Shown in pieces: positions 111 to 23,588 of a DNA stretch of 33,874 nucleotides. Position 1 is the stretch's first letter, and each line of letters starts with the position of its first letter. The stretch covers positions 1 through 33,874 of the IMG/VR virus record IMGVR_UViG_3300046001_003464. The stretch is one strand, 5' to 3'. This stretch comes from a virus. Position numbers and translations under genes: made by a program. Under the pieces are notes generated by a model. It saw nothing but the letters and a program-made list of their open reading frames with translations, did not search any database and had not been told where the DNA came from.

Positions 111-464
111 ATGACTGCTCCTAATATTCGAACTATTACTACTATGACTGGTAAAACTGCGGTGCAAGCGGTGTCTAACACTGCCACTGCTATTGTGACA
201 AATTCTGTATCGAGTAATCAGGTGTACAAACTCAACGCACTCTATATTTCGAATATTAATGGCGCCGCCGCACAAGAGGTTAGCGCAGAGATTTATCGTG
301 ACTCTAACTCCTTCTACATTGCCCGGACTGTAGTCGTGCCTGCGGATGCGACTCTTGACTTATTCTCTAAGTCGCTCTACTTAGAAGAGGGTGATGCGCT
401 AAGAATCAGTGCTAATACAGGTTCGAATGTGCACGCAGTTTGTTCGTATGAGGTTATAGCTTAA
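111..464 (+). CDS. Small virion-associated protein, copy 1 of a duplicated pair
   Basis: This 117-aa protein has no signal peptide or membrane segment. It is clearly paralogous to the product of 1647-2006: both begin with a PNI..VTT..G.T segment, share VYK(L/I)N(A/S)LY in the middle, then EGDALR(I/V)SA, and end in V(C)SYEV. The pattern of alternating hydrophobic residues suggests an all-beta domain. A run of A and G (GGAAACG) precedes the ATG. The stop codon shares one base with the start of the Kelch-like gene at 464, so the two are probably co-translated. From memory, similar small proteins occur beside fibre genes of marine phages, without known function. It could be a fibre adaptor or decoration protein. 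Confidence 0.75.
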   Translation: MTAPNIRTITTMTGKTAVQAVSNTATAIVTNSVSSNQVYKLNALYISNINGAAAQEVSAEIYRDSNSFYIARTVVVPADATLDLFSKSLYLEEGDALRISANTGSNVHAVCSYEVIA

Positions 465-1471
465 TGACCCGATTTAACGGTTCTATTTTAGGTTCTCCTC
501 GAGGCTCTAATAGCACCAGTGCTTCTGGAGTCTGGAGTGTAAATAATGTTGGAATTGCTAGGCTTAGTGATGCTTGGCCTATAGTTTTGTCTCTTAACAG
601 TGGATACACTTCAGGTGGTTTTATGCCCACTGGAGCAATATTTTATAATACAATTGATAAGTTTCCTTTCGCCTCCGACGGGAATGCGACTGATGTTGGC
701 GACCTCACTCAAGCTAGAAGTGGAACAGCAGGGCAAAGCTCTTCATCAAGTGGTTATACATCAGGCGGCATACCTGCAGCTAACTCCTCTGGAAATACTA
801 TTGATAAGTTCCCCTTCTCCTCAAACGCCAACGCAACTGATGTAGGCGATTTAACTACAAGTAAAACTAGAATTGCAGGGCATAGCTCCTCCTCTAGTGG
901 GTATATTTCCGGTGGTTTAGTTCTTCCAGCATCTCATCAAAATGTTATTGAAAAATTTCCCTTCGCTGCCAATGGAAACGCAAGTGATGTTGGAGACCTT
1001 ACTCAATCTAGACGTCAGCCAGCAGGGCAAAGCTCCTCAAGTTCCGGATATACATCTGGTGGTTTTACTCCTACAGTTCCTGGAGACGTAAATACAATAG
1101 ACAAATTTCCATTTGCTGCAGATACCAATGCGACAGACGTAGGGGACCTTACTGTAGCTAGACGTCCTGCAGCGGGACAAAGCTCCTCAACTAATGGTTA
1201 TACTTCAGGAGGTCTTACACCCACAGTAATTATTAATACTATTGATAAGTTTCCGTTTGCTTCCGATGGGAATGCTAGCGACGTCGGGGATCTGACTCAG
1301 GGTAGATACTACTCAGCAGGGCAAAGTTCATTAAGTTCTGGATACCTTTCAGGAGGAACGCCTCCAACAGTTAATACAATTGACAAATTTCCGTTCGCCT
1401 CAGACTCCAACGCAACTGACGTAGGTGACCTCTCTCAAATTAGAGAAGGCCCAGCAGGCCAACAAGGATAA
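464..1471 (+). CDS. Kelch-like six-repeat beta-propeller protein 1
   Basis: This 335-aa protein has a ~45-residue N-terminal segment (MTRFNGSILG..., with GVWS near residue 22), then six ~48-residue repeats. Each repeat reads GYTSGG, a variable loop, NTIDKFPFA, a short variable stretch, NATDVGDLT, an Arg, and AGQSS. The glycine pair followed by spaced aromatic residues matches the layout of Kelch repeats, and six copies would close a propeller. The last repeat ends the protein at AGQQ. Loops between GG and NTID vary in length and sequence. It overlaps the upstream 117-aa gene by one base. It is probably a virion adhesin or fibre tip; the ligand is unknown. A non-Kelch propeller family is the main alternative. 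Confidence 0.8.
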   Translation: MTRFNGSILGSPRGSNSTSASGVWSVNNVGIARLSDAWPIVLSLNSGYTSGGFMPTGAIFYNTIDKFPFASDGNATDVGDLTQARSGTAGQSSSSSGYTSGGIPAANSSGNTIDKFPFSSNANATDVGDLTTSKTRIAGHSSSSSGYISGGLVLPASHQNVIEKFPFAANGNASDVGDLTQSRRQPAGQSSSSSGYTSGGFTPTVPGDVNTIDKFPFAADTNATDVGDLTVARRPAAGQSSSTNGYTSGGLTPTVIINTIDKFPFASDGNASDVGDLTQGRYYSAGQSSLSSGYLSGGTPPTVNTIDKFPFASDSNATDVGDLSQIREGPAGQQG

Positions 1472-1474
1472 AAC

Positions 1475-1636
1475 ATGAGTATAGATAAATTAAGTCCCTC
1501 ACTATTAAAAACAGATAACGCTTCAGACAACGACGTCCTCACATTCGTGAGCGCGAACTCCCGTGTCGAGTTTAAGTCAGCGTCCTCAGGAGTCACCACA
1601 GGCAAAGCTATTGCAATGGCAATAGTCTTCGGATAA
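1475..1636 (+). CDS. 53-aa stand-alone docking-module protein
   Basis: This small gene fills the gap between the Kelch gene ending at 1471 and the 119-aa gene at 1647. The ATG at 1475 follows AAGGA (1464-1468) at good spacing, and the frame runs to TAA at 1634-1636. The product begins MSIDKLSPSLL and continues with NDVLTFVSANSRVEF. This matches the N-terminal module of the fibre gene at 3016 (VHPSLI, then GSVLIYSAANGVVEF). It ends with a hydrophobic tail, AMAIVFG. It therefore looks like the fibre docking module without a shaft or propeller. It may be a spacer or plug at a fibre attachment site, or a remnant of a longer fibre that still has intact signals. Confidence 0.65.
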   Translation: MSIDKLSPSLLKTDNASDNDVLTFVSANSRVEFKSASSGVTTGKAIAMAIVFG

Positions 1637-1646
1637 GGAAACTAAT

Positions 1647-2006
1647 ATGGCTAATCCAAATATTGTAAACGTTACGACCATCTATGGCGAAACCGAAGCG
1701 ATTAACGCAACTACCGCAAATGCGAACGTCGTACAAAATGGAACGAGTAGTGGGGCAGTATACAAAATCAACTCGCTCTATGCGTCGAATCTAAATGATA
1801 GTGTTAACATGGATGTGAATGTAGATTTGATTCGTCTCGCTAATACCTTTGCCGTGGCCCGTAACATACCAATTCCTTATAACTCTACAATTGTTGTGAT
1901 TTCAAAGGACTCTTCAATGTACCTTCGTGAGGGTGATGCTCTTCGAGTCAGCGCATCATCTAACTCGAATGTGCAAGTAGTCTGCTCTTATGAGGTTATT
2001 TCATGA
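1647..2006 (+). CDS. Small virion-associated protein, copy 2 of a duplicated pair
   Basis: This 119-aa protein is a paralog of the product of 111-464. They share the PNI..VTT opening, VYKIN(S)LY, EGDALRVSA and a VCSYEV ending. AAGGA at 1635-1639 precedes the ATG. The stop overlaps the start of the next gene as ATGA (2003-2006). As with the first copy, it is followed at once by a Kelch-like protein that has an MR(F/L)NGG/GIW-type N-terminus. The order small module protein, this protein, propeller therefore occurs twice in a row, which suggests a cassette duplication. Function unknown; a structural partner of the downstream propeller is the simplest reading. Confidence 0.75.
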   Translation: MANPNIVNVTTIYGETEAINATTANANVVQNGTSSGAVYKINSLYASNLNDSVNMDVNVDLIRLANTFAVARNIPIPYNSTIVVISKDSSMYLREGDALRVSASSNSNVQVVCSYEVIS

Positions 2007-2977
2007 GACTGAACGGGGGAGTAATTGGTCGCGCGAACGAATCTAATGCAGCTAGCGCTCCTGGAATTTGGGGCTGGGCTGAGCAAAACGTTCGGCTACT
2101 ATATGAGGAGTTTCCTGTAGTTACTACAGGCCCTACTAATGGGTATACTTCTGGTGGACGTTCACCCACAATAGTTAATACAATCGACAAGTTTCCGTTC
2201 TCTACAAACTCCAACGCAGCTGACGTAGGTGACCTTACTACGGCTAGAGCTGATGTAGCAGGACAAAGCTCTAGTGTGAGCGGGTACACATCAGGAGGGC
2301 TTGCACCTGCAGTAGTCAATACTATTGATAAGTTTCCTTTCTCTGCTAACGCCAACGCAACTGATGTTGGAGACTTGACTGTAAGTAGATACAGCCTAAC
2401 AGGGCAAAGTTCCTCTTCAAGTGGATACTCTTCCGGCGGCTTTTCTCCTGTAGTAAATACTATAGATAAATTTCCATTCGCTGCCGATGCCAACGCAAGT
2501 GATGTGGGGGATTTGACTCAGGCTAGATACAGTCTAGCAGGGCAAAACTCTTCAACTTCAGGATACACCTCCGGCGGAATTGCACCTCCGCAGGTAAACA
2601 CAATTGACAAGTTTCCATTCTCCTCAGACAGTAATGCAACTGATGTTGGTGACCTCACTCTAGGTAGAAGAGAGGCAACAGGTCAAAGTTCTAGCAACAG
2701 TGGGTATACATCGGGAGGTTACGGACCTCCACTTACCAATACTATCGATAAATTCCCATTCTCCTCAGACTCCAATGCAACTGATGTTGGTGACCTTACT
2801 GTACGTAGGCAGCAAGTAGCAGGGCAGAGTTCTAGTGAAAATGGATACACTGCTGGAGGGCGGTATACAGGAGTAGTCAACACTATCGACAAATTTCCCT
2901 TCGCGACAGACGGCAATGCAAGTGATGTTGGAGACCTCACTCAGGGTAGGTATGACTTAGCAGGCCAACAAGGATAA
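2003..2977 (+). CDS. Kelch-like six-repeat beta-propeller protein 2
   Basis: This 324-aa protein has an N-terminal segment of about 45 residues (MRLNGGVIG, then GIWGW) that resembles the one in the gene at 464 and differs from the other six propeller genes. Six Kelch-like repeats follow, with loops such as RSPTIV, LAPAVV, FSPVV, IAPPQV, YGPPLT and RYTGVV between GG and NTIDKFPF. The DNA of the repeats differs at many synonymous positions while the framework residues are held constant, so the duplications are old and the fold is under selection. It overlaps the preceding gene by four bases (ATGA). Probable virion adhesin. Confidence 0.8.
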   Translation: MRLNGGVIGRANESNAASAPGIWGWAEQNVRLLYEEFPVVTTGPTNGYTSGGRSPTIVNTIDKFPFSTNSNAADVGDLTTARADVAGQSSSVSGYTSGGLAPAVVNTIDKFPFSANANATDVGDLTVSRYSLTGQSSSSSGYSSGGFSPVVNTIDKFPFAADANASDVGDLTQARYSLAGQNSSTSGYTSGGIAPPQVNTIDKFPFSSDSNATDVGDLTLGRREATGQSSSNSGYTSGGYGPPLTNTIDKFPFSSDSNATDVGDLTVRRQQVAGQSSSENGYTAGGRYTGVVNTIDKFPFATDGNASDVGDLTQGRYDLAGQQG

Positions 2978-3015
2978 AATATTTGGTGCATAAAAGCGCC
3001 TAGAGGATAAAACGT

Positions 3016-4587
3016 ATGACAGTAAGAAGAGTGCATCCAAGTCTCATTGACTCGAACAACACTAGTGATGGTTCAGTCCTAATCTACAGTGCGGCGAATG
3101 GCGTCGTAGAGTTTGGGGCAGCCAGTGGTGGTGTTGACGTCGCTAACGCGTGGGTGAACGCGAATGACTATGCCACCTACCTACAAGCGCAGAGCAACGA
3201 TTTTAACACGTTGCAGACAGCTCGTGCGAATGACCTTACCACCTTTACAACTCTTACTGCAAATATCTTTAACACCTATACCCAGTTAAATGCTAATATT
3301 AACGTAGTACAGAGCAACATTGCAGCAACTTCGAATACTAACATCTATGCGGGTAACGTTAACCTCTCTAATACCACTGTCTTTATTCAAGCTGGTGACG
3401 GTGTTGTCTTAGACTCTAACACGATTTCCAAAACACTTACTATTGCTACCTCGATGAGCAATGTCACTTCGCAGACGCTCGCCATCACTGGAACTGCAAA
3501 TTCTTTTACCTTGACAAAGAGCGCCGCTAATGTTAATATGATTCTAGTGATGTATAATGGTCTCGTGCAAGACCCGTCAAACTATGTCATCTCAGGCACT
3601 ACTCTAACGCTACTGAACACTGCGCCTCTCATTGCAGGTGCCAATATTGAAGTAAGATATTTTGATTTCTTCTCTCTGCCTGGGTCGAGTAATAGTAGCG
3701 GTGGCGGTGGATACGTTTTTCAAGGTAGCACTAGTGGATACACTTCAGGTGGTAGATTTAGTCCTCCGGTAACAAGATATAATACAGTGGATAAGTTCCC
3801 ATTCGCCGCCAATGGCAACGCAAGCGATGTAGGAGACTTAACTGTAGCTAGAGACTTTGTAGCAGGCCAAAGCTCTACATCCAGTGGCTACACCTCTGGA
3901 GGCTCTACTGGAACTGACTCAAATGTTATAGATAAGTTTCCTTTTGCGGCAAACGCTAACGCGACAGACGTAGGAGATTTAACGCTTGCTCGATACGGAA
4001 GTACTGGACAAAGTTCTTCAACAAGCGGTTATACTTCGGGCGGAACTCCTACTACTAATACAATAGACAAGTTTCCCTTCGCTACCGACGGCAATGCAAC
4101 TGATGTAGGAGACTTAACGGTATCTAGAAGAAATATAGCTGGCCAAAGTTCTACTAGCAGTGGTTATACCTCGGGAGGAACTCCTCCTAATACGAATACT
4201 ATTGACAAGTTCCCGTTCGCTAGCAATGCCAACGCAACTGACGTAGGAGATCTAACAATTGCTCGCCCAGATGTAGTAGGTCAGAGCTCTTCTACAGACG
4301 GTTATACTTCAGGCGGTTTTACTTTTCCTCCTGATAATTGGCGTAATATTATAGATAAGTTCCCATTCGCTAGCAATGCCAATGCAACTGACGTAGGAGA
4401 TCTTACTAGAGGTTCAGCATCATCTGCTGGTCAAAGTTCTACAACCAGTGGTTATAGCTCTGGAGGCCAAACTACTGGTAGTTATACTAATATTATAGAC
4501 AAATTTCCTTTTGCTAGCAATGCTAATGCCACAGATGTTGGAGATCTGTCTCAGACTAGATCTCTTGCTGCAGGACAACAGGTATGA
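3016..4587 (+). CDS. Fibre: docking module, hendecad shaft, adaptor, six-repeat propeller
   Basis: This 523-aa protein has four parts. Residues 1-40 are a docking module (VHPSLI...VLIYSAANGVVEF). Residues ~45-105 hold 11-residue units of the ANDYATYLQAQ type, probably a trimeric coiled-coil shaft. Residues ~110-225 form a beta-rich adaptor ending STTLTL-like, then IEVRYF. The rest is six Kelch-like repeats ending AGQQV. AGAGGA at 3002-3007 precedes the ATG. The stop overlaps the next start as ATGA. The adaptor also occurs as the C-terminus of the genes at 6140 and 9938, where the propeller is a separate gene. Likely tail-associated receptor-binding fibre. Confidence 0.8.
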   Translation: MTVRRVHPSLIDSNNTSDGSVLIYSAANGVVEFGAASGGVDVANAWVNANDYATYLQAQSNDFNTLQTARANDLTTFTTLTANIFNTYTQLNANINVVQSNIAATSNTNIYAGNVNLSNTTVFIQAGDGVVLDSNTISKTLTIATSMSNVTSQTLAITGTANSFTLTKSAANVNMILVMYNGLVQDPSNYVISGTTLTLLNTAPLIAGANIEVRYFDFFSLPGSSNSSGGGGYVFQGSTSGYTSGGRFSPPVTRYNTVDKFPFAANGNASDVGDLTVARDFVAGQSSTSSGYTSGGSTGTDSNVIDKFPFAANANATDVGDLTLARYGSTGQSSSTSGYTSGGTPTTNTIDKFPFATDGNATDVGDLTVSRRNIAGQSSTSSGYTSGGTPPNTNTIDKFPFASNANATDVGDLTIARPDVVGQSSSTDGYTSGGFTFPPDNWRNIIDKFPFASNANATDVGDLTRGSASSAGQSSTTSGYSSGGQTTGSYTNIIDKFPFASNANATDVGDLSQTRSLAAGQQV

Positions 4588-6143
4588 GTTTAACTAATTT
4601 AAATATTCAACAAGTCGATACGCTAGGCATTGAAAATACTGCCATTGCGTCTAAGGCGAGTGTCGATACTGTACAGAGTAATGTTACAGCGTTATCCGCT
4701 AACGTTAATGTGTCTAATGCTTGGGTCAATGCGAATGACTTCAATACGTTAAACACAGCACGCAGTAATGACTATAACACACTGCTTGCCGCACAAAGCA
4801 ACGACTTTAATACGCTAAACACGGCTCGAGCAAACGACTACACTACTCTACTGACAACGGCGGCTAATGACTATGCTACGTTCACCGCTCTTACTGCTAA
4901 CACTTATAACACCTATTTAGCTACACTTAATACTGCAATCTATGTAGGTAGTACGCTAGTCTCAAATACTGCTGTGATTCTTCAAGCCGGGAATGGCGTC
5001 TCTCTCACAGCCAACGCCACCTCTAAAGTAGTCACCTTCACTACCGCTATGAGTAATGTGACTTCTCAAGAGTTCACAGCGAATGGCGCCTCTAACGTCT
5101 TTACTCTTACAAAAGGCGCCTCAAATACTCACATGATTCTAGTGAGTTATAATGGTATTCTACAAAAACCAACCACCTATACGATAAACGGTACCACGCT
5201 CACTCTGTCAAACACTCGTCCTATTGCGGCAAACTCTGATATAGAAGTGCGATTCTTTGACTTCTTTGATTTGCCGGGTAATACTTCTGGTGGCGGGTCA
5301 AGTTATAGTTTTCAAGGTTCTGTCAGTGGGTATACTTCGGGAGGTTCTGGACCTGTTAACACTATTGACAAGTTTCCCTTCGCCACAAATGGAAATGCGA
5401 CAGATGTTGGCGATTTAACTATAACTAGATTTTTTACAGCTGGGCAAAGTTCTAGCGTCTCCGGATACACTTCGGGTGGACGAACTCCTCCAACAGTTAA
5501 CACTATCGATAAATTCCCCTTTGCGACTGATGGGAACGCAAGCGACGTAGGTGATTTAACTCAGGGCAGGTACGGCTCTGCAGGACAAAGTTCTAGTGAG
5601 AGCGGATATTCTTCAGGAGGGGGCACTCCTGCGGATGTAAACACTATAGATAAGTTTCCGTTTGCGGCAAATGGAAACGCAAGCGATGTTGGAGATCTAA
5701 CTGCGGTTAGAAATCACCCAGCCGGGCAAAGTTCTTCTACAAGTGGATATTCTGCTGGGGGCGGTGCTTACCTTAATACTATTGACAAGTTTCCATTCTC
5801 TACAAACGCCAACGCAACTGACGTAGGCGATTTAACAGTAGGTAGAAAAATTGTAACAGGTCAAAGTTCTACAACTAGCGGATATTCTTCTGGCGGCGCA
5901 ATATCTTCAAACGTAATAGATAAGTTTTCATTTGCTGCAGATGGAAATGCGAGTGATGTTGGAGATTTGACGGGTGCTACGCCCGGTGCTGTTGGACAAA
6001 GTTCTACTACTAGTGGGTATGCTACAGGAATTTCTCCAGGAAATTTGAATATAGATAAATTTCCTTTCTCTTCTGACTCTAATGCTAGCGACGTTGGAGA
6101 TTTGACTCAGGGCAGGTATCGGGGAGCAGGCCAACAGATATGA
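4584..6143 (+). CDS. Fibre: coiled-coil/hendecad shaft, adaptor, six-repeat propeller
   Basis: This 519-aa protein is organised like the product of 3016. A short N-terminal segment containing LNIQQVD and a small coiled coil is followed by NAWVNANDF and about six 11-residue ANDxxTLxxAx units. A beta-rich adaptor with ILVSYNGILQ and IEVRFF comes next, then a Gly/Ser linker, then six Kelch-like repeats. Repeats 5 and 6 are slightly irregular (FSFA in repeat 5; GYATG and a shortened loop in repeat 6). It overlaps both neighbours by four bases. AGGA inside the codons for the upstream AGQQ end can serve as its ribosome-binding site. Likely a receptor-binding fibre. Confidence 0.8.
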   Translation: MSLTNLNIQQVDTLGIENTAIASKASVDTVQSNVTALSANVNVSNAWVNANDFNTLNTARSNDYNTLLAAQSNDFNTLNTARANDYTTLLTTAANDYATFTALTANTYNTYLATLNTAIYVGSTLVSNTAVILQAGNGVSLTANATSKVVTFTTAMSNVTSQEFTANGASNVFTLTKGASNTHMILVSYNGILQKPTTYTINGTTLTLSNTRPIAANSDIEVRFFDFFDLPGNTSGGGSSYSFQGSVSGYTSGGSGPVNTIDKFPFATNGNATDVGDLTITRFFTAGQSSSVSGYTSGGRTPPTVNTIDKFPFATDGNASDVGDLTQGRYGSAGQSSSESGYSSGGGTPADVNTIDKFPFAANGNASDVGDLTAVRNHPAGQSSSTSGYSAGGGAYLNTIDKFPFSTNANATDVGDLTVGRKIVTGQSSTTSGYSSGGAISSNVIDKFSFAADGNASDVGDLTGATPGAVGQSSTTSGYATGISPGNLNIDKFPFSSDSNASDVGDLTQGRYRGAGQQI

Positions 6144-7429
6144 CAGATATTAATATTAAACCAATTCAAATTGATGTATTCGGGGCTAGCGACGGTCAGG
6201 CCTTAGTCTATAGTGCTAGCAATAACACTCTAGAGTATAGAGCCGTATCTGGTTCAGAGGCTAACCTATACAACACCTACCTGACGTTGTCAGCCAACGA
6301 TTTTAACACATTAAACACGGCTCGAGCAAACGACTATACTACTCTGCTCTCTTCTCAGGCTAATGATGGTGTAACGCTAGCTACAGCACGAGGCAATGAC
6401 CATGCGACACTACTAAGTGCGCAAGCAAATGATTTTAGTACTTTTACAAATCTGTCGGCTAATGACTTTAACACTCTGCAGACTGCTCGAGCAAATGACT
6501 ACACCACTTATCTTGCCGCACTCGCTAATGATGGTGTAACTCTACTCTCAGCGCAGGCAAACGACTATAGCACTCTTTTAGCAGCGCAGAGTAACGACTA
6601 TGCGACACTACTAAGCGCACGAGCAAACGACTACTCTACATATCTTGTAGTTAATGCAAACGTCTACAACACCTATACAGTCTTAAACGACCAGATTGTA
6701 CAAATCAATTCGAATCTTAGTTTTACAAACGCTTGGGTGAACGCCAACGACTACACGACGTATCTTTCAGCTCAAGCGAACGACTACAACACGCTACTGA
6801 CTACCGCCGCAAATGACTACGCTACCCTACTCTCAGCACAAAGCAATGACTATAGTACATTTTTAGCAGTCGAAGCTAATGTCTATAACACGTATACCGC
6901 TCTTGCAGCCAACTCAGACGTTTCAAATGCTTGGGTGAACGCTAATGACTATAACACGTTGTTCTCAGCCTACGCTAATGACGGTTCTACTCTACTCTCA
7001 GCGCAGGCAAACGACTATTCCACGCTACTGAGCGCCTATGCCAACGATTATAGCACCCTACTCTCAGCGCAGGCAAACGACTATAGCACTCTTCTCGCAG
7101 CACAGGCAAACGACTACTCGACACTCCTAGCAGCACGAAGCAACGACTATAGCACATATACCACACTCACTGCGAATATCTACAACACCTATGCATTTCT
7201 CAATGCAAACCTAGGTGGAACTGTCACTAGTCAACGCTTTAACACGGCTGCAAATTCCAATACTTTCACCTTATCGCAAAGCGTAGCTGATGCTAATGCA
7301 ATTCTTGTCACTCTTAGTGGAGTCGTACAAGTGCCTATTGACGCTTACATTGTATCTAGCACTACGCTAACACTCAATAACACCTCTCCACTAATTTCAA
7401 ATCTACGACTCGAAGTTCGGTACTTATAA
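6140..7429 (+). CDS. Hendecad-repeat fibre shaft protein without propeller
   Basis: This 429-aa protein starts with a docking module (INIKPIQID...ALVYSASNNTLEY). Residues 41-355 are almost entirely 11-residue units of the form ANDYSTLLSAQ: 26 good copies, interrupted near residues 184-201 by an 11+7 insertion and near 257-267 by a degenerate 11-mer, both ending NAWVN. An 11-residue period is that of right-handed coiled coils, so a long straight trimeric shaft is expected. Residues ~356-429 are the beta adaptor (AILVTLSGVVQ ... LRLEVRYL), which ends the protein. The separate propeller gene at 7439 starts ten bases later and probably provides the tip. Confidence 0.8.
   Translation: MTDINIKPIQIDVFGASDGQALVYSASNNTLEYRAVSGSEANLYNTYLTLSANDFNTLNTARANDYTTLLSSQANDGVTLATARGNDHATLLSAQANDFSTFTNLSANDFNTLQTARANDYTTYLAALANDGVTLLSAQANDYSTLLAAQSNDYATLLSARANDYSTYLVVNANVYNTYTVLNDQIVQINSNLSFTNAWVNANDYTTYLSAQANDYNTLLTTAANDYATLLSAQSNDYSTFLAVEANVYNTYTALAANSDVSNAWVNANDYNTLFSAYANDGSTLLSAQANDYSTLLSAYANDYSTLLSAQANDYSTLLAAQANDYSTLLAARSNDYSTYTTLTANIYNTYAFLNANLGGTVTSQRFNTAANSNTFTLSQSVADANAILVTLSGVVQVPIDAYIVSSTTLTLNNTSPLISNLRLEVRYL
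6260..7204 (+). repeat. 33-bp (11-aa) hendecad repeat array
   Basis: In-frame array coding residues 41-355 of the shaft protein. Twenty-six 33-base units encode (A/S/G)NDxxTLxxAx, with an 18-residue interruption (11+7) after unit 13 and a degenerate 11-mer after unit 18. Units are conserved in protein but scrambled at synonymous sites, so most are not recent copies. Confidence 0.8.
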
Positions 7430-7438
7430 GGAGCGATT

Positions 7439-8431
7439 ATGCCACTAGAACGAATTAGTCCTTATATGCTGAGCCCTGTTTCGACGAATGGGGCGAATGC
7501 CGCGGCAAATGCCTATATTGTTTATAACGCCGCTACTGGCCTTGTTGAGTGGAGTATAACAGATGCTAAAGGCTTTCAAGGTACTGTCAGTGGGTATACT
7601 TCCGGGGGCGGTACGCCTGCGGACGTAAATACTATTGATAAGTTTCCCTTCGCCTCAGACGGCAATGCCACTGATGTAGGTGATTTATCGCAAATTAGAC
7701 GCGGGGCAGCAGGGCAAAGCTCCACAGTCAGCGGATATACATCAGGCGGCGTTCCTAATATAAACACCATTGACAAGTTTCCATTCTCCACTAATGCTAA
7801 CGCAAGCGATGTAGGAGACCTCACTGCAGGTAGATATTTTTCCGCAGGACAAAGTTCTAGCAGTTTTGGATACACTTCTGGAGGAAATACTCCTACTGCA
7901 GTTAATACTGTTGATGAGTTTTCCTTCGCTACAGACGGAAATGCAACGGACGTTGGCGACCTTACTCAAGCTAGAGGCAGTGTAACAGGTCAAAACTCTA
8001 CCGTTTCTGGGTATGTTTCGGGTGGAGGTGCGGCTCCGGCACCTGTCAATATTATTGATAAGTTTCCGTTTGCTGCAAATGATAACGCCAGTGATGTCGG
8101 TGACTTAAGTGTTGCTAGACGAACTCCAGCAGGGCAAAGCTCTACTGAGAGCGGTTACACCTCTGGAGGGGGTAACCCTCTTGCAATCAACACCATTGAC
8201 AAGTTTCCATTCGCTAGCAATGCTAATGCGAGCGATGTCGGAGATTTATCCCTAATCAGACGTGCTTCAGCAGGACAAAGCTCTACTGTGAGCGGGTACA
8301 CTTCAGGAGGTGGTTCACCGCCTGCAGTGTATAATAATATTGATAAGTTTCCATTTGCATCTAATGCCAATGCAACTGACGTTGGCGATTTAACTAGTGC
8401 TAGATGGGAAGTTGCAGGGCAACAAACTTAA
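7439..8431 (+). CDS. Kelch-like six-repeat beta-propeller protein 5
   Basis: This 330-aa protein has a ~50-residue N-terminal docking module (ISPYMLSP ... AYIVYNAATGLVEW ... FQGTVSGYTSGG) and then six Kelch-like repeats to the C-terminus. AAGGAG at 7428-7433, just after the preceding stop, gives a strong ribosome-binding site. Repeat 3 departs from consensus (NTVDEFSFA). The module FQG(T/S)(V/I)SGYTSGG is shared with the genes at 3016, 4584, 8433 and 13373, marking a common junction where propellers are joined to different N-termini. It probably forms the tip carried by the shaft protein encoded just upstream. Ligand unknown. Confidence 0.8.
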   Translation: MPLERISPYMLSPVSTNGANAAANAYIVYNAATGLVEWSITDAKGFQGTVSGYTSGGGTPADVNTIDKFPFASDGNATDVGDLSQIRRGAAGQSSTVSGYTSGGVPNINTIDKFPFSTNANASDVGDLTAGRYFSAGQSSSSFGYTSGGNTPTAVNTVDEFSFATDGNATDVGDLTQARGSVTGQNSTVSGYVSGGGAAPAPVNIIDKFPFAANDNASDVGDLSVARRTPAGQSSTESGYTSGGGNPLAINTIDKFPFASNANASDVGDLSLIRRASAGQSSTVSGYTSGGGSPPAVYNNIDKFPFASNANATDVGDLTSARWEVAGQQT

Positions 8432-8432
8432 A

Positions 8433-9401
8433 ATGCCAATTTCATTAGTCTCAATTTTTAATATCGAACCTCCCGCCAATGCAACTGCTAATGCCAATTT
8501 GCAGTTCAATTCGTCTACGGGTCGGGCGGAGTGGGTTAGTCCTCCTCGAGTTTTTCAAGGTACTATATCTGGATATAGCTCGGGCGGTCAGGGCCCTGTA
8601 AATACTATAGAAAAATTCCCTTTCTCCACTAATACCAATGCAAGTGACGTCGGAGATCTCTCACAGGCTAGAAGATATGCTGCGGGTCAAAGCTCTGCCG
8701 AAAATGGTTATACATCTGGTGGAGAAACTACTCTTAACATAATAGATAAGTTTCCTTTTGCTGCAAACGCCAACGCAACAGACGTAGGTGACTTGACTCA
8801 AGGTAGAGATGGTCCAACAGGGCAGAGTTCTACTGTGAGCGGATTTACTTCAGGGGGCTGGGCTACTCCCAATGTCAATACAATAGATAAGTTCCCATTC
8901 GCTAGCGATGCCAATGCGACGGATGTCGGGGACCTTACGGTAGTTAGAAGATATCTAGCTGGACAAAGCTCTACCGCAAGTGGATACTCTTCCGGAGGAG
9001 CCTCTCTTTCAAATGTCACTACAATAGATAAGTTTCCCTTCGCTAGCAACGCCAATGCAACTGGTGTCGGTAATCTAACTAATACTACTGTTAGAGGTGC
9101 TGGACAAAGTTCTAGTACGAGTGGATACGTTTCTGGCGGTACCGGTGTTGGGACTCTTAACACAATCGATAAATTCCCTTTCGCTACCGATGCCAACGCG
9201 GTAGATGCAGGTGACTTAACACAAGCTAGAACAGGTCCGTCAGGTCAAAGCTCTACTATATCTGGATATTCAGTAGGTGGGTGGGCTCCTCCGACTTTAT
9301 CAAATGTTATAGATAAATTTGCCTTTGCTTCAAGCGCCAATGCAACTGATGTTGGAGACTCTACTGTTACCGGAGCTTATGCCGCTGGACAGCAGATATG
9401 A
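8433..9401 (+). CDS. Kelch-like six-repeat beta-propeller protein 6
   Basis: I place the start at the ATG at 8433 (MPISLVSIFNIEPP), which follows the preceding TAA by one base. An upstream in-frame ATG at 8397 would add 12 residues inside the previous gene and has no support. The 322-aa product has a ~45-residue docking module (ANLQFNSSTGRAEW, VFQGTISGYSSGG) and six Kelch-like repeats. Repeats 4 and 6 are the most divergent (ATGVGNLTN, DKFAFA). The gene ends in AGQQI with TGA at 9399-9401, which overlaps an ATG at 9398 belonging to the broken ninth copy. Probable adhesin. Confidence 0.8.
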   Translation: MPISLVSIFNIEPPANATANANLQFNSSTGRAEWVSPPRVFQGTISGYSSGGQGPVNTIEKFPFSTNTNASDVGDLSQARRYAAGQSSAENGYTSGGETTLNIIDKFPFAANANATDVGDLTQGRDGPTGQSSTVSGFTSGGWATPNVNTIDKFPFASDANATDVGDLTVVRRYLAGQSSTASGYSSGGASLSNVTTIDKFPFASNANATGVGNLTNTTVRGAGQSSSTSGYVSGGTGVGTLNTIDKFPFATDANAVDAGDLTQARTGPSGQSSTISGYSVGGWAPPTLSNVIDKFAFASSANATDVGDSTVTGAYAAGQQI

Positions 9402-9476
9402 CTTTGTCATTATCGAGTCTCTGCCAACGCAACTGACGCAGACAACTTGAACGCCCTTAGCAGGCCAACAAGTTTA
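9398..9476 (+). pseudogene. Remnant of a ninth Kelch-like gene (start and end only)
   Basis: An ATG at 9398 overlaps the upstream stop as ATGA, exactly as at 4584 and 6140, and begins MTLSLSSL, like other N-termini in the cluster. The frame stops at 9434-9436. From 9423 the DNA instead matches the end of a Kelch gene: GCCAACGCAACTGACG (the NATD codons) and AGCAGGCCAACAAG (9459-9472, the AGQQ codons) are nearly intact, with about 11 bases lost between them, then TAA at 9474-9476. This is best explained by a large internal deletion of a former propeller gene. Confidence 0.65.
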
Positions 9477-9490
9477 ACGTAATTTTTTTA

Positions 9491-9519
9491 TTGACAACCT
9501 CACAAAAAAAGTCTAGTAT
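9491..9519 (+). promoter_or_regulatory. Possible sigma70-type promoter before the cytidylyltransferase
   Basis: TTGACA (9491-9496, perfect -35) is followed after 17 bases by TAGTAT (9514-9519, 4 of 6). TATAAG (9517-9522) is a better -10 hexamer but at a 20-base spacing. The ATG at 9525 is so close that the transcript would be nearly leaderless. The -35 and its A/T-rich surroundings are clear; activity is inferred. Confidence 0.4.
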
Positions 9520-9524
9520 AAGGC

Positions 9525-9938
9525 ATGACTCGAATTTTTACTAATGGCACCTTTGATGTGCTACATCCTGGACACATTGCGCTTTTACAGTATGCCGCTT
9601 CATTAGGTGACTACCTGCTAGTCGCACTTGATAGTGATGAACGTGTCTCCGCTCGTAAAGGGCCTTCACGACCGGTGAACTCGCTCTATGCTAGAACTAC
9701 TCTAATGTCCGCACTACGCGGTGTTGACGAGGTGCGTTCGTTTAGCAGTGATGCCGAGCTTGAAGCGATTGTTGAAGACTATTGTCCTAGCGTGATGGTT
9801 GTCGGTAGTGACTGGCGCGGTAAACGCATTGTCGGGGCGCAGCACGCTGCACGTGTTGAATATTTTGAACGTACAACATCTGATTCGACAAGTGAGATAC
9901 TAAATAACTATCTCCTTCGTCTCCGTGAGAAATTTTAA
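9525..9938 (+). CDS. Cytidylyltransferase-like nucleotidyltransferase
   Basis: This 137-aa protein belongs to the cytidylyltransferase-like superfamily, which joins a nucleotide to a sugar or polyol phosphate (as in glycerol-3-phosphate cytidylyltransferase or the RfaE/HldE C-terminal domain). The signature GTFDVLHPGHI at residues 8-18 contains the HxGH nucleotide-binding motif. RTTSDSTSEI near residue 116 corresponds to the family's RT.G.STT motif. Length fits a single-domain enzyme. It sits alone inside the fibre cluster, behind a possible promoter, and its TAA overlaps the next ATG by one base (9938). It could supply an activated sugar or polyol for glycan modification together with the enzymes at 14462-19567. 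Substrate not determined. Confidence 0.85.
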   Translation: MTRIFTNGTFDVLHPGHIALLQYAASLGDYLLVALDSDERVSARKGPSRPVNSLYARTTLMSALRGVDEVRSFSSDAELEAIVEDYCPSVMVVGSDWRGKRIVGAQHAARVEYFERTTSDSTSEILNNYLLRLREKF

Positions 9939-12256
9939 TGAGTAACACTTTTACCACCCCTCGAGTAGTAACTACCGTATCTCAGAGTAGGTTAGATTAT
10001 AATAATGCTCTAACTTCGTTACTTCAAAATTTTGCAAGTACAGGGTCGCCGAATCCGACTGACATAAACCTAGAAGATGGTACTGGATTTCGTACTGGAA
10101 TGCTCTGGTATAAGAGCGGGACCGACACTGCTGACGGGCAAGGTCGGTTATTTATTTATAATGGCACAGAGTTTACACGTAACGGGTTAAACGCTTATAA
10201 AATGCCTAGTATTACAGCTGCGAATACTGCAGCTACTTCTGGTACTGTCTCTTATGGAGACTTAATACTAGTAGGCAGTGACCTGCTATACATGGTTAAT
10301 ACTGCAAACAATGGTATTGTCCGTATTGGTGGGGACGCTGTGACTCTTTCAGGTCTCGCCTCTACCCAATTTGTTCGAGCAGATATAGATGACGATATCG
10401 CAGGTAATATTGCATTTACTAGTAACGCTTTCGTACGTCTTCCCATAGGCAATACGGCACAACGTCCGGGCACCTCTACAATAGGTATGCTCCGATATAA
10501 TACTAGTCTCAACTCGTTTGAAGGGTATGACGGTACTGAGTGGGGAGAGATTGGCGGCGGCGGAGCTTTTACCGATGACGGCACTTATGTTCACTATATT
10601 GGCGGAGCTAACGTAGGAATTGGTACGGATACTCCGAGCGCTAACTTACATGTTGCAGGAGCTGGAGGTATCTTAAAGCTAGAAACTGGTACTACAAGTG
10701 ACGTAGTAGGTGTAGCTCTTCGTATAAGTCGAAACAGCACTGCAATTGCTACTAACTCAGGCTATGGTGGAGTAGAGTGGAGTGGCGGAGATACAGGTGG
10801 CTCAGGGGTTCGTGGATATGTAAAAGGATTTGCAGCAGGCGAGAACGGAGAATTTAGCGTTCGGCTTGCAACTCAAGGCAGCGGTGCATCTTCCCCTGTT
10901 GATAGATTAAGCGTCTGGTCTAGTGGTAACGTCGGTATTGGCGTTTTGAATGCTAATACCCCACTACAAGTTGCGGGTAATATCTCAGTTTCTGGCGGCG
11001 ATGCAACAATCTTTAATCGTGATGCAAACTATCTTGCGCTGGGCACTAACAATAGAGAAGTACTACGCATTACTCCGACAGGTAACCTCGCCTATGGTAC
11101 CAGCAGTCCTAGTTCTAACGTACAGTTTAACGGTGCAGGTCCTGTATTACGACTTCAAACCGCTAGCACGTCTGATGTTACCGGGGTCTCACTTCGTTTT
11201 CATCAAACAGACACTACTATTGTCGCCGGTCAAAGCTATGGCGGAGTAGAATGGGATGGAGACGATACAGAAGGTTCGGGTGTACGAGGGTACATTCGAG
11301 GTAATGCAGAAGGCTCTAGTGGTGAATTTAGTCTTAGATTTGCTACTCAAGGGTCTGGAGTGTCAGCGCCTGTTGAACGTCTTGTAGTTAACGCTGCAGG
11401 TAGTGTTGGTATAGGCACTGTTACACCTTCTACTACATTGCACGTGGTAGGTACTATTACAGGTAGTCTAGCCCTTATCAACTCCGTAGATGTTTTAGCA
11501 AATGATGGAGTAACCCTAGCAACAGCTCGTGGTAACGACCACAGCACTCTTCTTAGTGCCTATGCTAATGACGTGTTAACTCTTGCTACTGCCAGAGGCA
11601 ATGACCACTCTACTTTACTATCAGCTCAGGCAAATGATTATAACTCTTACTTAACTATTAGTGCAAATGATGGAGTAACTCTTGCTACTGCTAGGGGTAA
11701 CGACCACAGCACTCTTCTTAGCGCTTATGCTAATGATGTATTAACTCTTGCTACTGCTAGGGGTAACGACCACAGCACTCTTCTTAGCGCCTATGCTAAT
11801 GATGTGTTAACTCTTGCTACTGCTAGGGGTAACGACCACAGCACTCTTCTTAGCGCCTATGCTAATGACGTGTTAACTCTTGCTACTGCTAGGGGTAACG
11901 ACCACAGCACTCTTCTTAGCGCCTATGCTAATGACGTGTTAACTCTTGCTACTGCTAGGGGTAACGATCATACTACTTTCGTAACAGTTACGGCTAACCT
12001 CTATAATACTTTTGTCAGCCTAAATGCTAATCTAGGGTCTAGTACTTATAGCAGTCAAACTATTTATACAGTAACTACTACTAATAACTACACTATGAGA
12101 CAAAGTGTAGCTAGTGCTAATAATATTCTAGTTTCTCTATCTGGATTAACACAGATTCCGTGGACTAGTTATACTGTTTATGGTAATACTACTTTGCGGT
12201 TAAACAATACTGCTCCTCTCATTGCTAACATCCCTATTGAGATTCGGTTCTTATAA
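9938..12256 (+). CDS. Large tail fibre with VGIG-type repeats and hendecad shaft
   Basis: This 772-aa protein starts with an FTTPRVV segment and a globular region. From about residue 225 it carries repeats of the phage-fibre type VGIGTDTPSANLHVAG. A ~90-residue block (TSDV.GV.LR ... YGGVEW ... GSGVRGY ... FATQGSG ... VGIG) is present twice. Residues 521-696 are sixteen 11-residue shaft units, and residues ~697-772 are the beta adaptor ending PIEIRFL. There is no S74-type chaperone domain at the C-terminus; the adaptor ends the chain. TAA overlaps the ATG of the propeller gene at 12256 by one base. This is probably the longest fibre, with its tip encoded separately. Confidence 0.8.
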   Translation: MSNTFTTPRVVTTVSQSRLDYNNALTSLLQNFASTGSPNPTDINLEDGTGFRTGMLWYKSGTDTADGQGRLFIYNGTEFTRNGLNAYKMPSITAANTAATSGTVSYGDLILVGSDLLYMVNTANNGIVRIGGDAVTLSGLASTQFVRADIDDDIAGNIAFTSNAFVRLPIGNTAQRPGTSTIGMLRYNTSLNSFEGYDGTEWGEIGGGGAFTDDGTYVHYIGGANVGIGTDTPSANLHVAGAGGILKLETGTTSDVVGVALRISRNSTAIATNSGYGGVEWSGGDTGGSGVRGYVKGFAAGENGEFSVRLATQGSGASSPVDRLSVWSSGNVGIGVLNANTPLQVAGNISVSGGDATIFNRDANYLALGTNNREVLRITPTGNLAYGTSSPSSNVQFNGAGPVLRLQTASTSDVTGVSLRFHQTDTTIVAGQSYGGVEWDGDDTEGSGVRGYIRGNAEGSSGEFSLRFATQGSGVSAPVERLVVNAAGSVGIGTVTPSTTLHVVGTITGSLALINSVDVLANDGVTLATARGNDHSTLLSAYANDVLTLATARGNDHSTLLSAQANDYNSYLTISANDGVTLATARGNDHSTLLSAYANDVLTLATARGNDHSTLLSAYANDVLTLATARGNDHSTLLSAYANDVLTLATARGNDHSTLLSAYANDVLTLATARGNDHTTFVTVTANLYNTFVSLNANLGSSTYSSQTIYTVTTTNNYTMRQSVASANNILVSLSGLTQIPWTSYTVYGNTTLRLNNTAPLIANIPIEIRFL
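11678..11971 (+). repeat. Near-identical 66-bp tandem repeats in the fibre shaft
   Basis: Four full 66-base units start at 11678, 11744, 11810 and 11876, with a partial fifth at 11942. Each encodes two hendecads (TLATARGNDH..., STLLSAYANDVL). The units differ at only a few positions, while the flanking copies at 11498-11677 are clearly diverged. This marks a recent tandem expansion and a site prone to length change by slippage or recombination. Confidence 0.85.
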
Positions 12257-13371
12257 TGACTCTTCTATCGCTTGACCCTTCTTTAATAGACGGAACTGGA
12301 GTCAGTGCTAACGCTGTTATCTCATACAACAGCGTCACTGCGTATTTACAAGTTAGTTCTACTACAGGTCCTACAGGAAATGTAAATATTGTAACTCTTG
12401 CCCCTTATTTGTTAGAGCCTTTAGAGATTCCAGGATATGCTATAGAGGCAAACGCTAACGTTTTTTATAACGCGGTAAATAATAGAGTTCAGATGAGTTC
12501 TTATTTACGAGCTTATCAAGGTTTTACAAGTGGTTATACCTCTGGCGGTTCTAGTCCTACGTACACTAATACAATAGATAAGTTTTCATTCACCTCAGAT
12601 GGTAATGCGACAGATGTTGGAGACCTGACCGTAGCTAGGGATTCTGCAGCAGGTCAGAGCTCTAATACTCATGGTTATACCTCTGGTGGAGCAGCCCCTG
12701 TAACCAACGTTATAGACAGATTTCCTTTTGCATCTGGGGGTAATGCTACAGATGTCGGAGATTTAACGCAAACGCGATTAACTGCTGCCGGGCAGAGTTC
12801 TGAAGTAAGCGGATATACTTCAGGCGGCTATTCTATCCCTTTTGCTATTCGAAATACTATAGACAAATTTCCTTTTGCCACTAACGCCAATGCAACTGAT
12901 GTTGGGGATTTAAGCGTAGCGAGGTCTGATGTTACAGGAGTTAGCTCTCCTCTATCTGGATACTCTTTAATGGGTATTTCTACTCCAGGAGCTGAAGTAA
13001 ATACAATTGATAAATTTCCCTTTGCCACTAATGCTAATGCAACAGATGTAGGTGATATTACACAAACAGGTTCTCGCGCATCCGGGCAAAGCTCTGCCTA
13101 TTATGGTTATAAGGGTGGTCATTCTGGTTCTACTCGTATAGATAAGTTTCCTTTTGCGGTAAATTCAAATGCTACTACGGTAGGAGATATTACTCAAAGT
13201 AGATTCGAAGCCGCAGGTCAGAGTTCTACTGTGTCTGGATATATTTCTGGCGGTCGTAGCCCTACTATTAGAACTACTATTGATAAGTATCCGTTTGCTT
13301 CAGAGTCAAATTCCTCAGATGTAGGAGACCTCACTGTAGGTAGATATGACGTAGCAGGACAACAGGTTTAG
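12256..13371 (+). CDS. Kelch-like propeller protein 7 with doubled docking module
   Basis: This 371-aa protein begins with two tandem docking modules. The first is LDPSLID...AVISYNSVTAYLQV, and the second (residues ~46-80) is LAPYLLEP...NVFYNAVNNRVQM. A YQG linker and six Kelch-like repeats follow. Repeat 5 is trimmed (GYKGG, then STRIDKFPF without the usual NT), and repeat 6 reads DKYPFA. The ATG shares one base with the stop of the large fibre gene, so it is coupled to that gene and probably forms its tip. The upstream end of that fibre and this start recreate, as two genes, the order seen in one gene at 3016 and 4584. Confidence 0.8.
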   Translation: MTLLSLDPSLIDGTGVSANAVISYNSVTAYLQVSSTTGPTGNVNIVTLAPYLLEPLEIPGYAIEANANVFYNAVNNRVQMSSYLRAYQGFTSGYTSGGSSPTYTNTIDKFSFTSDGNATDVGDLTVARDSAAGQSSNTHGYTSGGAAPVTNVIDRFPFASGGNATDVGDLTQTRLTAAGQSSEVSGYTSGGYSIPFAIRNTIDKFPFATNANATDVGDLSVARSDVTGVSSPLSGYSLMGISTPGAEVNTIDKFPFATNANATDVGDITQTGSRASGQSSAYYGYKGGHSGSTRIDKFPFAVNSNATTVGDITQSRFEAAGQSSTVSGYISGGRSPTIRTTIDKYPFASESNSSDVGDLTVGRYDVAGQQV

Positions 13372-13372
13372 T

Positions 13373-14413
13373 ATGTCACTTACTCGTTTAAATATTGCTT
13401 TTATCTCTCCTGATACTTCAGGGTTTAACTCTGTGCTACGTTATAGTACCGCAGAATCTAAGTTTATCTGGGATAACTCTGAATTCTCTTTCACAGCTAA
13501 CTATCAAGGTAGTGTCAGTGGTTATACATCTGGCGGAGGAAATCTCGATTCTAGTTTTCTTAACGTTATAGACAAGTTTCCTTTCGCAGCAGATGGAAAT
13601 GCCTCAGATGTAGGTGATTTATCTCAAGTCAGAACTCAAGTAGCGGGACAAAGTTCGCTTGTATCTGGATATACTTCTGGAGGCGTAACTTTTCCTGCGA
13701 CGCCGACTAGAGTTAATACAATAGATAAATTCCCTTTCGCTTCTAACGCTAATGCTACAGATGTAGGAGACTTAACCGCAGTTAGACGCTTTTCTACAGG
13801 GCAGAGTTCTAGTGAGAGTGGATATACCTCAGGAGGTGGAAATGATGGTGGGTACCTCAATATAATAGATAAGTTTCCTTTTGCTACTAATGCTAATGCA
13901 ACAGATGTAGGAGACTTAACTTTAATTAGAGCTAGGCCCGCAGGACAAAATTCTGGAACTTCTGGCTACTCTTCGGGAGGAACGGGGGCCCCGCCTACAC
14001 TTACTATTGTAAATACAATAGATAAATTTCCGTTTGCCACCAACGCTAATGCAAGTGACGTGGGGGACCTAACTCAAGTAAAAACAGGCGCGACTGGTAC
14101 TAGTTCTGCCGTACGCGGTTATACTGCGGGAGGCAGTTCTAGTGTGCCTACTATAGTAAATACTATTGATAGATTCCCTTTTGCTGCCGACGCTAATGCA
14201 ACGGATGTAGGGGATTTAACTATTGTTACGCTATCTCCTGCTGGGCAGCAATCTACTGCTTCTGGATACGTTTCTGGAGGTATACTCACTCAAACTCCTA
14301 GTTTTACTTACACAAATGTAATTAACAAGTTTCCCTTTGCTGCTGACGGGAATGCAAGCGATGTAGGAGATCTAACTGTTGCAAGAGGTTACTCAGCAGG
14401 CCAGCAAGATTAA
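13373..14413 (+). CDS. Kelch-like six-repeat beta-propeller protein 8
   Basis: This 346-aa protein has a ~48-residue docking module (LNIAFISP ... VLRYSTAESKFIW ... YQGSVSGYTSGG) and six Kelch-like repeats. GG-to-NTID loops are longer than in most paralogs (for example ILTQTPSFTYT in repeat 6 and VTFPATPTRV in repeat 2). The start follows the preceding TAG by one base; AGGA in the upstream AGQQ codons is the only nearby ribosome-binding signal, at 13 bases. It is the last propeller gene of the cluster and is followed by a 48-base gap. Confidence 0.8.
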   Translation: MSLTRLNIAFISPDTSGFNSVLRYSTAESKFIWDNSEFSFTANYQGSVSGYTSGGGNLDSSFLNVIDKFPFAADGNASDVGDLSQVRTQVAGQSSLVSGYTSGGVTFPATPTRVNTIDKFPFASNANATDVGDLTAVRRFSTGQSSSESGYTSGGGNDGGYLNIIDKFPFATNANATDVGDLTLIRARPAGQNSGTSGYSSGGTGAPPTLTIVNTIDKFPFATNANASDVGDLTQVKTGATGTSSAVRGYTAGGSSSVPTIVNTIDRFPFAADANATDVGDLTIVTLSPAGQQSTASGYVSGGILTQTPSFTYTNVINKFPFAADGNASDVGDLTVARGYSAGQQD

Positions 14414-14461: not shown

Positions 14462-15187
14462 ATGAAAAAACTTGTTACCGTACTCTGCACTGACGACTGG
14501 CAACCGAACATTCGTTCGTTGACGTTTCCACTCTTTAAATATTTTGCTCGCAAGATAGGAGCAGACTTCCACGTCATCCGCACACGTCAGTTTCCTGACC
14601 ACCCGCTCTGTTACGAACGCTTTCAACTCTACGAGCTGTCCAAACACTATGATTGGACCTATCAGTTTGATGCGGATTTATTGCTGCATCCTGACATGCC
14701 CGATTTAACACCTCTGCTAACCAAGGATATTGCAGTTGTTTCGCAACCAGGCATGGCATCGCAGTCATATCAGAGTGATGAATACTTCTTGCGTGATGGG
14801 CGCAATCTCTGTGTGGGCATCTTTTTCACACTCACCTCTGATTGGACTCGTGACTTCTGGAATCCTCCCCTTGATATTTCACCTGAAGTCGCGATGTCGC
14901 GTTGTACTCCAAAAGTATTTGAGTGGCGTGAGCGTCAGCTGTTTCACGAGCATGTAGTAATTGACTACCTTATCTCTCGTAACGTCGCACGATATGGCAT
15001 AAAAATCAAGCCAATTCAGAGCGTCTTCTCTGACGCACTCTCTCGTGGGTACTGTTCGCTACTGCCCGTAGACGACTATATTATGCACAATGCGTCCCTA
15101 CAAAACCATCATAAACTAGCACATATTCGTAATGTGCTGCAAAACTACTGGAAGATTGACCCGACTCAGCCTCCAGTCACCCTATAA
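14462..15187 (+). CDS. GT-A-type glycosyltransferase-like protein
   Basis: This 241-aa protein starts with a beta-strand VTVLCTDDW and has FDAD at residues 69-72 (in YQFDADLLLHPDM), which fits the DxD metal/nucleotide-sugar motif of GT-A enzymes. A late HNASLQNHHKLAHIR segment may supply a metal-binding His, as in family 8-like enzymes. No membrane segment is seen. It opens the tailoring cassette after the fibre genes. Sequence upstream contains TAGACA (14427) and TATAAG (14448), but the 15-base spacing makes a promoter uncertain. Donor and acceptor unknown; transfer of a sugar to a fibre, capsid or host glycan are all possible. Confidence 0.65.
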   Translation: MKKLVTVLCTDDWQPNIRSLTFPLFKYFARKIGADFHVIRTRQFPDHPLCYERFQLYELSKHYDWTYQFDADLLLHPDMPDLTPLLTKDIAVVSQPGMASQSYQSDEYFLRDGRNLCVGIFFTLTSDWTRDFWNPPLDISPEVAMSRCTPKVFEWRERQLFHEHVVIDYLISRNVARYGIKIKPIQSVFSDALSRGYCSLLPVDDYIMHNASLQNHHKLAHIRNVLQNYWKIDPTQPPVTL

Positions 15188-15197
15188 GGAGAATACC

Positions 15198-15539
15198 ATG
15201 CCCATAGTAGAATTTAAGAAACACCCAGTAGAAGGCGGAATGCGGGGGTCTAAGATTCCTGATTTTGTTCGTGGTAGTGCGGACTACCATAATCCCAACG
15301 ACGATACCTATGTAGGTTGGGTTGCCGATAATCGTGACTTCTACCTACCTGATAGCGTTGTGGTACTAGATAAGCCTGCCTTTGTCTCTCGTATGCTCGC
15401 TATTCATGCAGTACAACCGATGACTACTTTTGGTGGCGAGCCTGGCAGTAGCCCTACTACCATGAGTGAATCACAAGTGATTACTTTTGCTGAAGAAACC
15501 TTTGACCGCATTGTGGCCCATTGCCGCGCTGAGGACTAA
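15198..15539 (+). CDS. Conserved-looking 113-aa protein of unknown function
   Basis: I choose the ATG at 15198 because AAGGAG (15186-15191) lies six bases upstream; a longer frame from 15132 would overlap the previous gene by 56 bases without signals. The soluble product begins MPIVEFKKHP and contains DDTYVGWV, then YLPDSVVVLD and FVSRMLAIH, with an acidic helical end. I recall similar short proteins near fibre genes in marine phages but cannot name a function. It sits between the glycosyltransferase-like gene and the sulfotransferase, on the same strand. Confidence 0.7.
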   Translation: MPIVEFKKHPVEGGMRGSKIPDFVRGSADYHNPNDDTYVGWVADNRDFYLPDSVVVLDKPAFVSRMLAIHAVQPMTTFGGEPGSSPTTMSESQVITFAEETFDRIVAHCRAED

Positions 15540-15554
15540 TCGTTAGAGAACTGA

Positions 15555-16382: not shown

Positions 16383-16927
16383 TGTATGAACAGACTATTT
16401 TTCGTACGCAAATTTGGGGTTGTGTTTTAACAAGTGAAGAGATTCGTCTCTCTACATATTTACAGGCGGTACAACAACTTGCTACGACCGATGGCGGCGT
16501 ACGTAAGAGTAACTTTGGTGGCTGGCAATCGCATGACAAGATTCATGAGATGCCCGTCTTTAAACCGCTTGTCCGCGCTATACTAGACTTCGCCGCCCCC
16601 ATCTTGCAGCCCTACACGCCTCAAACGCCTATTATACAATCTATGTGGGCAAATTTAAATTTTAAGCATTGCTATAATGGGCACCATACTCATGAGGGTT
16701 GGCTCTCTGGTGTTTTCTATTTACAGGCTCCACCTAAGAGTGGGCGACTTATCTTTACAAACCCTGCCATTCGCAGTGAACGGCATCTACTCAGGGATAG
16801 CAACTATCCCCTAACTCCTGTCAAGCTCGGTTGTATACTCTTTCCTAGTTGGCTCGAACACTATGTCGAACCGAGTCAAAGTGATCAACCTCGAATTTCT
16901 ATTAGTTTTAATATAGGTGATAAATGA
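16382..16927 (+). CDS. 2OG-Fe(II) oxygenase family protein (TIGR02466-like)
   Basis: This 181-aa protein starts at GTG 16382, sharing one base with the previous stop; no better ATG lies nearby. It reads MWANLNF, then a His-rich HHTHEGWLSGVFYL, then SGRLIFTNP, ILFPSWLEHYVEP and RISISFN at the end. This is the layout I know from a family of putative 2OG-Fe(II) oxygenases: proximal His before SGV.YL, distal His in FPSWLEH, and Arg in RISISFN. Such enzymes hydroxylate substrates using 2-oxoglutarate and O2. The substrate is unknown. It overlaps the double oxygenase gene by ATGA. Confidence 0.75.
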   Translation: MYEQTIFRTQIWGCVLTSEEIRLSTYLQAVQQLATTDGGVRKSNFGGWQSHDKIHEMPVFKPLVRAILDFAAPILQPYTPQTPIIQSMWANLNFKHCYNGHHTHEGWLSGVFYLQAPPKSGRLIFTNPAIRSERHLLRDSNYPLTPVKLGCILFPSWLEHYVEPSQSDQPRISISFNIGDK

Positions 16928-23575: not shown

Positions 23576-23588
23576 GGAGCGAATAAAG

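Follow-up and report, generated by a model that had tools for sequence, protein, structure and literature searches.

Several phage receptor-binding proteins carry propellers, with five blades in phi11 Gp45, five in PRD1 P2, and seven in PhiKZ gp131 (PMC4901313). The jumbo phage CBB encodes the Kelch proteins CBB_550, CBB_552, and CBB_554, of which CBB_552 was found in the virion (PMC5259590). Outside phages, the Kelch domains of Keap1, KLHL3, and KLHL12 and the designed protein SAKe6 are built from six four-stranded blades. The phage protein profile phrog_19111 has no function or structure attached to it. The window analysed here is the whole of an IMG/VR sequence, 33,874 bases long, from an uncultured virus. 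It encodes eight paralogous proteins that all match phrog_19111 (E 4e-13 to 1e-36), and we supply a predicted fold and role for them: they are predicted to be six-bladed Kelch-type propellers with one variable face and probably act as exchangeable receptor-binding tips of tail fibres. They resemble phi11 Gp45, PRD1 P2, and PhiKZ gp131, adhesin or baseplate proteins that also bear a propeller (PMC4901313), but differ from these in the number and type of blades and in copy number, with eight paralogues of near-identical blades in the window against one such protein in phi11. The CBB proteins, unlike those of the window, have recognisable Kelch repeats, and the available text of the CBB report contains no mention of variability confined to one face (PMC5259590). 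What is new here is that variation is concentrated in two loops of the blade, b-c and d-a, both of which the topology places on one face.

The first 14.4 kb of the window is taken up by tail-fibre-like genes, all on one strand, with the eight propeller genes among them. A siphovirus-like head and tail module occupies the window from approximately 20 kb onward, with a terminase at 20587, a portal at 22322, a protease-capsid fusion (Peptidase_S78 and Phage_capsid) at 23559, a major tail protein at 30318, and the start only of a tape measure gene at 32541. T5-like phages are nearest for the terminase and portal, at 35-40% identity, and the virus is therefore taken to be a distant T5-like siphovirus. 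Between the fibre cluster and the terminase lies a cassette (14462-19567), mostly kept in the related records L160 and L162, that encodes a sulfotransferase, three 2OG-Fe(II) oxygenase-like proteins, and a methyltransferase.

All eight propeller genes are present as open reading frames on the plus strand, at the starts given in the first-pass annotation, and in each the blades run to the stop codon. The first (464..1471, blades from ~590) and second (2003..2977, blades from ~2129) have N-terminal anchors of the NGS..GVWS and MRLNGG..GIW types, respectively, and directly 5' of them lie genes for two small paralogous proteins of 117 aa (111..464) and 119 aa (1647..2006). Homologues of the 117-aa protein sit before anchor genes in the related records L159 and L161, and the 119-aa protein has same-position homologues, 64-70% identical, in the same two records. 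The third gene (3016..4587) encodes a short adaptor, a stalk of 11-residue repeats, a linker domain, and six blades from ~3715, and the fourth (4584..6143) an 11-residue-repeat stalk, a DUF4183-like linker (E 3.6e-06), and six blades from ~5307. A short adaptor precedes the six blades of the fifth (7439..8431, from ~7574), sixth (8433..9401, from ~8553), and eighth (13373..14413, from ~13502) genes, and two adaptor-like segments precede those of the seventh (12256..13371, from ~12514), in which blades 4 and 5 are degenerate. The start of the sixth gene is an internal ATG within a GTG-started ORF at 8397-9401. Two further plus-strand genes of the cluster are without a propeller: a fibre-body-like gene (6140..7429), with the 11-residue repeats and linker domain of the third and fourth genes, and a tail-fibre gene (9938..12256; phrog_9942 tail fiber, E 3.1e-12) that shares the 11-residue repeats and, at its C-terminal end, the linker of those genes. 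Pattern-based sorting of the N-terminal types proved too crude and was discarded. Immediately 5' of the tail-fibre gene is a cytidylyltransferase-like gene (9525-9938; PF01467); the pair also occurs in L159, L160, and L162, and may be connected with the modification of fibres or glycans.

The first-pass annotation had reported six DKFPFA-type motifs in each of the eight genes, 48 in total, and our motif count agrees, with no gene having another number; the label is also apt, as the variants include DKFSFT, DRFPFA, EKFPFS, and DKYPFA. The motifs are spaced 44-52 residues apart in the eight genes, and in alignment the repeat takes the form QSSS.SGYTSGG-(variable)-NTIDKFPFASDANATDVGDLT-(variable)-AG. 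To count blades in related viral contigs we used a repeat profile built from the 48 window repeats, which replaced a strict regular expression that overlooked many blades. Six repeats were found by this profile in 157 of 164 complete distinct arrays. Inspected by eye, four divergent arrays among the remaining seven have six blade-like units, one is apparently frameshifted in its sixth blade, and one is a fragment. This leaves a single clear exception, an intact-looking gene with five blades (L022, 1856-2896) whose longest exact internal repeat is 30 nt and which may be either a genuine departure from six or an assembly collapse. Among 19 further complete ORFs at terminase-relative and bacterial-contig loci, a set that partly overlaps the 164 arrays, 18 have six repeats and one has five, the first repeat of the latter appearing truncated. 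A constant count is not a general feature of repeats in the cluster, as the number of 11-residue stalk units varies freely (2, 5, 22, and 16 in the genes at 3016, 4584, 6140, and 9938, by one pattern). Within the gene at 9938, a 66-bp tandem repeat (11676-11967; 4.4 copies, 98% match) represents a recent expansion of the stalk repeat, unlike the propeller repeats.

The old divergence that had been claimed for the blades is borne out by their codons. The peptide IDKFPF occurs in 37 identical copies spelled by 27 different codon strings, from which it follows that synonymous sites have strongly diverged while the scaffold is under selection. Exact repeats inside the eight genes reach a maximum length of 15-24 nt, depending on the gene. 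Chance, recent DNA duplication, and gene conversion were considered as sources of the constant count and are ruled out by the codon diversity and the shortness of the exact repeats. Blades are no more alike between genes at the same position (62% identity) than at different positions (61%); position carries almost no signal, and efforts to trace blade orthology between genes were unsuccessful. The eight genes may have arisen either by duplication of whole genes or by import. A bacterial origin for the family was not supported: only five bacterial-genome contigs match, all of them from metagenome-assembled genomes, 4-14 kb long, and likely phage sequence.

Two AlphaFold models support the closed six-bladed propeller that had been proposed to explain this constancy, and we regard a closed six-bladed fold of Kelch type as almost certain. 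The protein of gene 7439, modelled with 80 related sequences (pLDDT 92.3, pTM 0.87), forms a closed ring of 24 propeller strands in the order b1 c1 d1, a2 b2 c2 d2 and so on to d6, followed by a1, the final strand coming from the C-terminal AGQQ. That of gene 12256, which ranks with the most diverged members of the set, closes in the same 24-strand pattern (pLDDT 85.6). For both models, the best PDB matches are Kelch six-bladed domains and designed six-bladed Kelch proteins (E about 1e-19, TM by target 0.85-0.93). Each blade would thus consist of strands a (AGQSS), b (GYTSGG), c (NTIDKFPF), and d (ATDVGDL), with the C-terminal AGQQ predicted to serve as strand a of blade 1 and so to close the ring. 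The likeness to Keap1, KLHL3, KLHL12, and SAKe6 extends to this terminal-strand closure and to the double glycine after strand b, whose two residues are conserved at 98% and 96% among the 48 window repeats and at 95-96% among 984 repeats. Kelch repeats have spaced aromatic residues (Tyr, Trp) in strands c and d; here strand c has a conserved Phe, and strand d has VGDL where Kelch has Trp. The phage proteins further differ from these Kelch domains in their phage fibre context, in having blades that are far more alike, and in sequence, with only 14-20% identity and no match to a Kelch model.

Sequence libraries give a different answer from the fold. No Kelch family is among the Pfam matches listed at E<=10 for the window genes and 80 relatives, and the Kelch_1 model has zero matches in the four virus records searched. 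The sole hit at E<=10 when the family profile was compared with the PDB is a Kelch protein, weak (E 0.06) and aligned in register. The description of the repeats as Kelch-like thus holds by fold and by one weak profile hit and fails by the Pfam and Kelch_1 sequence models, and we accordingly use "Kelch-type" and leave strict membership open. Other families were considered and set aside: the Pfam hits to THDPS_M, NucA/NucB, and DUF4907 are short and fall on a single part of the repeat, and NCBIfam gave only scattered weak matches from unrelated families. A literature text search found no publication on the repeat motif. Among phages, structural neighbours include Kelch proteins of jumbo phages (BcepSaruman and PhiPA3 relatives), at 11-19% sequence identity.

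Variation within the blade is strongly uneven. Across 984 repeats, entropy is low for most strand positions and for the c-d loop and high for the b-c and d-a loops, with the a-b loop in part moderately variable. In a subset of 84 arrays defined by the strict regular expression, the b-c loop is anywhere from 0 to 18 residues long, and the a-b and c-d loops are of constant length in nearly all measured cases. The up-down topology of a four-stranded blade should put the b-c and d-a loops on one face of the propeller, so that in the complete ring of six blades twelve variable loops would surround a conserved scaffold. In ten pairs of related arrays, pN/pS is 1.04 for the b-c and d-a loops, against 0.34 for loops on the opposite face and 0.15 in the strands, the loop classes having been set after the entropy profile was seen and the other-face loops handled identically. 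The faces differ by a Fisher p of 8e-10, which assumes an independence of substitutions that is not fully met, and 9 of 9 informative pairs are concordant. A near-neutral ratio could arise where diversifying selection acts together with constraint, or where constraint is relaxed, and it is not proof of positive selection. Several array pairs alternate between identical and diverged segments in a mosaic suggestive of recombination. A diversity-generating retroelement was rejected as a source of the variation, no RVT_1 having been found in the window or in twelve related records, most of them fragments.

The variable face most likely binds host surface structures, either glycans or outer-membrane proteins. 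Galactose oxidase and similar propeller enzymes share the wider Kelch architecture, which lends some plausibility to the propellers being glycan-active tail enzymes; such a function is very improbable, however, as the conserved residues recur to the same extent in each of the six blades, where they occupy strands and short turns, and the family is without the single position-specific conserved site that a catalytic centre would need. The propellers might instead be accessory decorations of the virion (whiskers or side fibres) with a loose affinity for glycans, mucus, or particles and no part in selecting the host. The many copies held by these genomes are in keeping with decoration, as are the Kelch proteins of the whisker-bearing phage CBB, one of which was found in the virion without an assigned function (PMC5259590). 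We nevertheless consider decoration quite unlikely, because one face is far more variable than the other and close relatives swap heads on conserved anchors, both as specific recognition predicts.

The exchange of heads is best seen in two virus contigs with terminases 84-85% identical to that of the window. Both keep, after the small partner protein, an anchor 47-49% identical over ~49 residues to that of the gene at 2003, and the head on this anchor is a much longer lactonase-type propeller. The slot resembling that of the gene at 464 also has a different head in both, with a glycine-rich domain in the one scanned. In other relatives, the six-bladed propeller forms the C-terminal end of long collagen-like-repeat proteins with a T7-fibre-like segment, and it also ends proteins with a glycine-rich, tail-fibre-related part. 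Exchange of heads on a fixed base is typical of phage adhesins. The adhesin role put forward in the first-pass annotation is thus backed by genomic context, namely the fibre cluster, the fusions to shafts, and the head swaps on anchors, and on these grounds a role as fibre tip or adhesin is probable. The proteins would be organized as an N-terminal anchor or adaptor of ~40-90 residues, followed in two genes by a stalk and linker, with the propeller at the C-terminal end, and the propellers would be interchangeable receptor-binding tips of the tail fibres of a distant T5-like siphovirus. The proteins would then be present in the virion and bind receptors, and they may assemble as trimers, with several different heads perhaps used by one particle. 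The same context makes it highly improbable that the proteins are intracellular binders of host proteins like the Kelch proteins of eukaryotes and poxviruses, even though Kelch domains from these two sources are the closest structures outside phages: the genes lie in a tail-fibre cluster, the propellers are fused to shafts, other fibre tips substitute for them in relatives, and a BTB or similar partner domain is absent by Pfam. Long lactonase/WD40-like propeller proteins appear as fibre heads in L159 (6224-8632) and L160 (2338-6048), so that among close relatives a given gene slot can hold more than one kind of propeller.

The suggestion that eight heads make an unusually broad adhesin set is not supported. 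Relatives hold 2-13 propeller places, and family-bearing contigs over 40 kb hold 3-13, for example 6 on a 102-kb contig, 9 on a 201-kb contig, 7 at 183 kb, 13 at 155 kb, and 10 at 64 kb, although these copy numbers are approximate because matches are fragmented and contigs incomplete. Eight falls inside this range, and several heads per genome are ordinary. Terminase relatives carry from none to several propeller genes, some of their contigs stopping short of the region, and the head set thus seems to be turned over between relatives. This turnover, together with the recombination suggested by the mosaic arrays, would fit a reservoir in which one or a few heads are mounted per virion and the others are brought into use by recombination or differential expression. 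Such a reservoir is unlikely, given eight intact frames on one strand, each with its own start codon and adaptor and each kept under selection as judged by codon diversity, and given the outcome of the reverse transcriptase search. That most heads are displayed simultaneously on one virion is itself doubtful, and we offer only tentatively the idea of an antibody-like display, in which up to a dozen propellers with a near-invariant, almost symmetric scaffold and diversification mainly in the twelve loops of one face would be carried as several heads per virion and would bind many kinds of host surface.

In one scan of uncultured viruses, 137 of 137 candidate stretches were confirmed as members of the repeat family, and the present analysis provides a predicted fold and a testable role for a widespread sequence family previously without function. 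If the proposed role is correct, these phages come equipped with a library of propeller binders whose binding face is mapped, a natural counterpart of designed symmetric Kelch scaffolds and an aid to predicting host range from metagenomes. Among 50,697 phage records, the only homologue is Synechococcus phage S-SKS1 (tblastn, 36% identity), in which the terminal genes (SWZG_00001 and neighbours; L076, 1-9008) encode YGYFGGG...NTIDRIDFSNETTSAPGNNL repeats in a first array of six, followed by a linker (GGASERIKGSR) and, unlike the window genes, a second array. Some frames of the S-SKS1 propeller genes look broken, perhaps as a result of sequencing errors in repeats, and with arrays running on past the linker the number of blades in a domain is harder to read there than in the window.

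Two features of the head and tail module may also be recorded. The prohead protease and major capsid protein form a single 857-aa frame (23559-26132) with a spacer of nearly 400 residues. At 27161-28435, a concanavalin-like Laminin_G_3 domain (E 3e-16) interrupts the head-tail connector or head-completion protein and would place a possible glycan binder at the particle neck.
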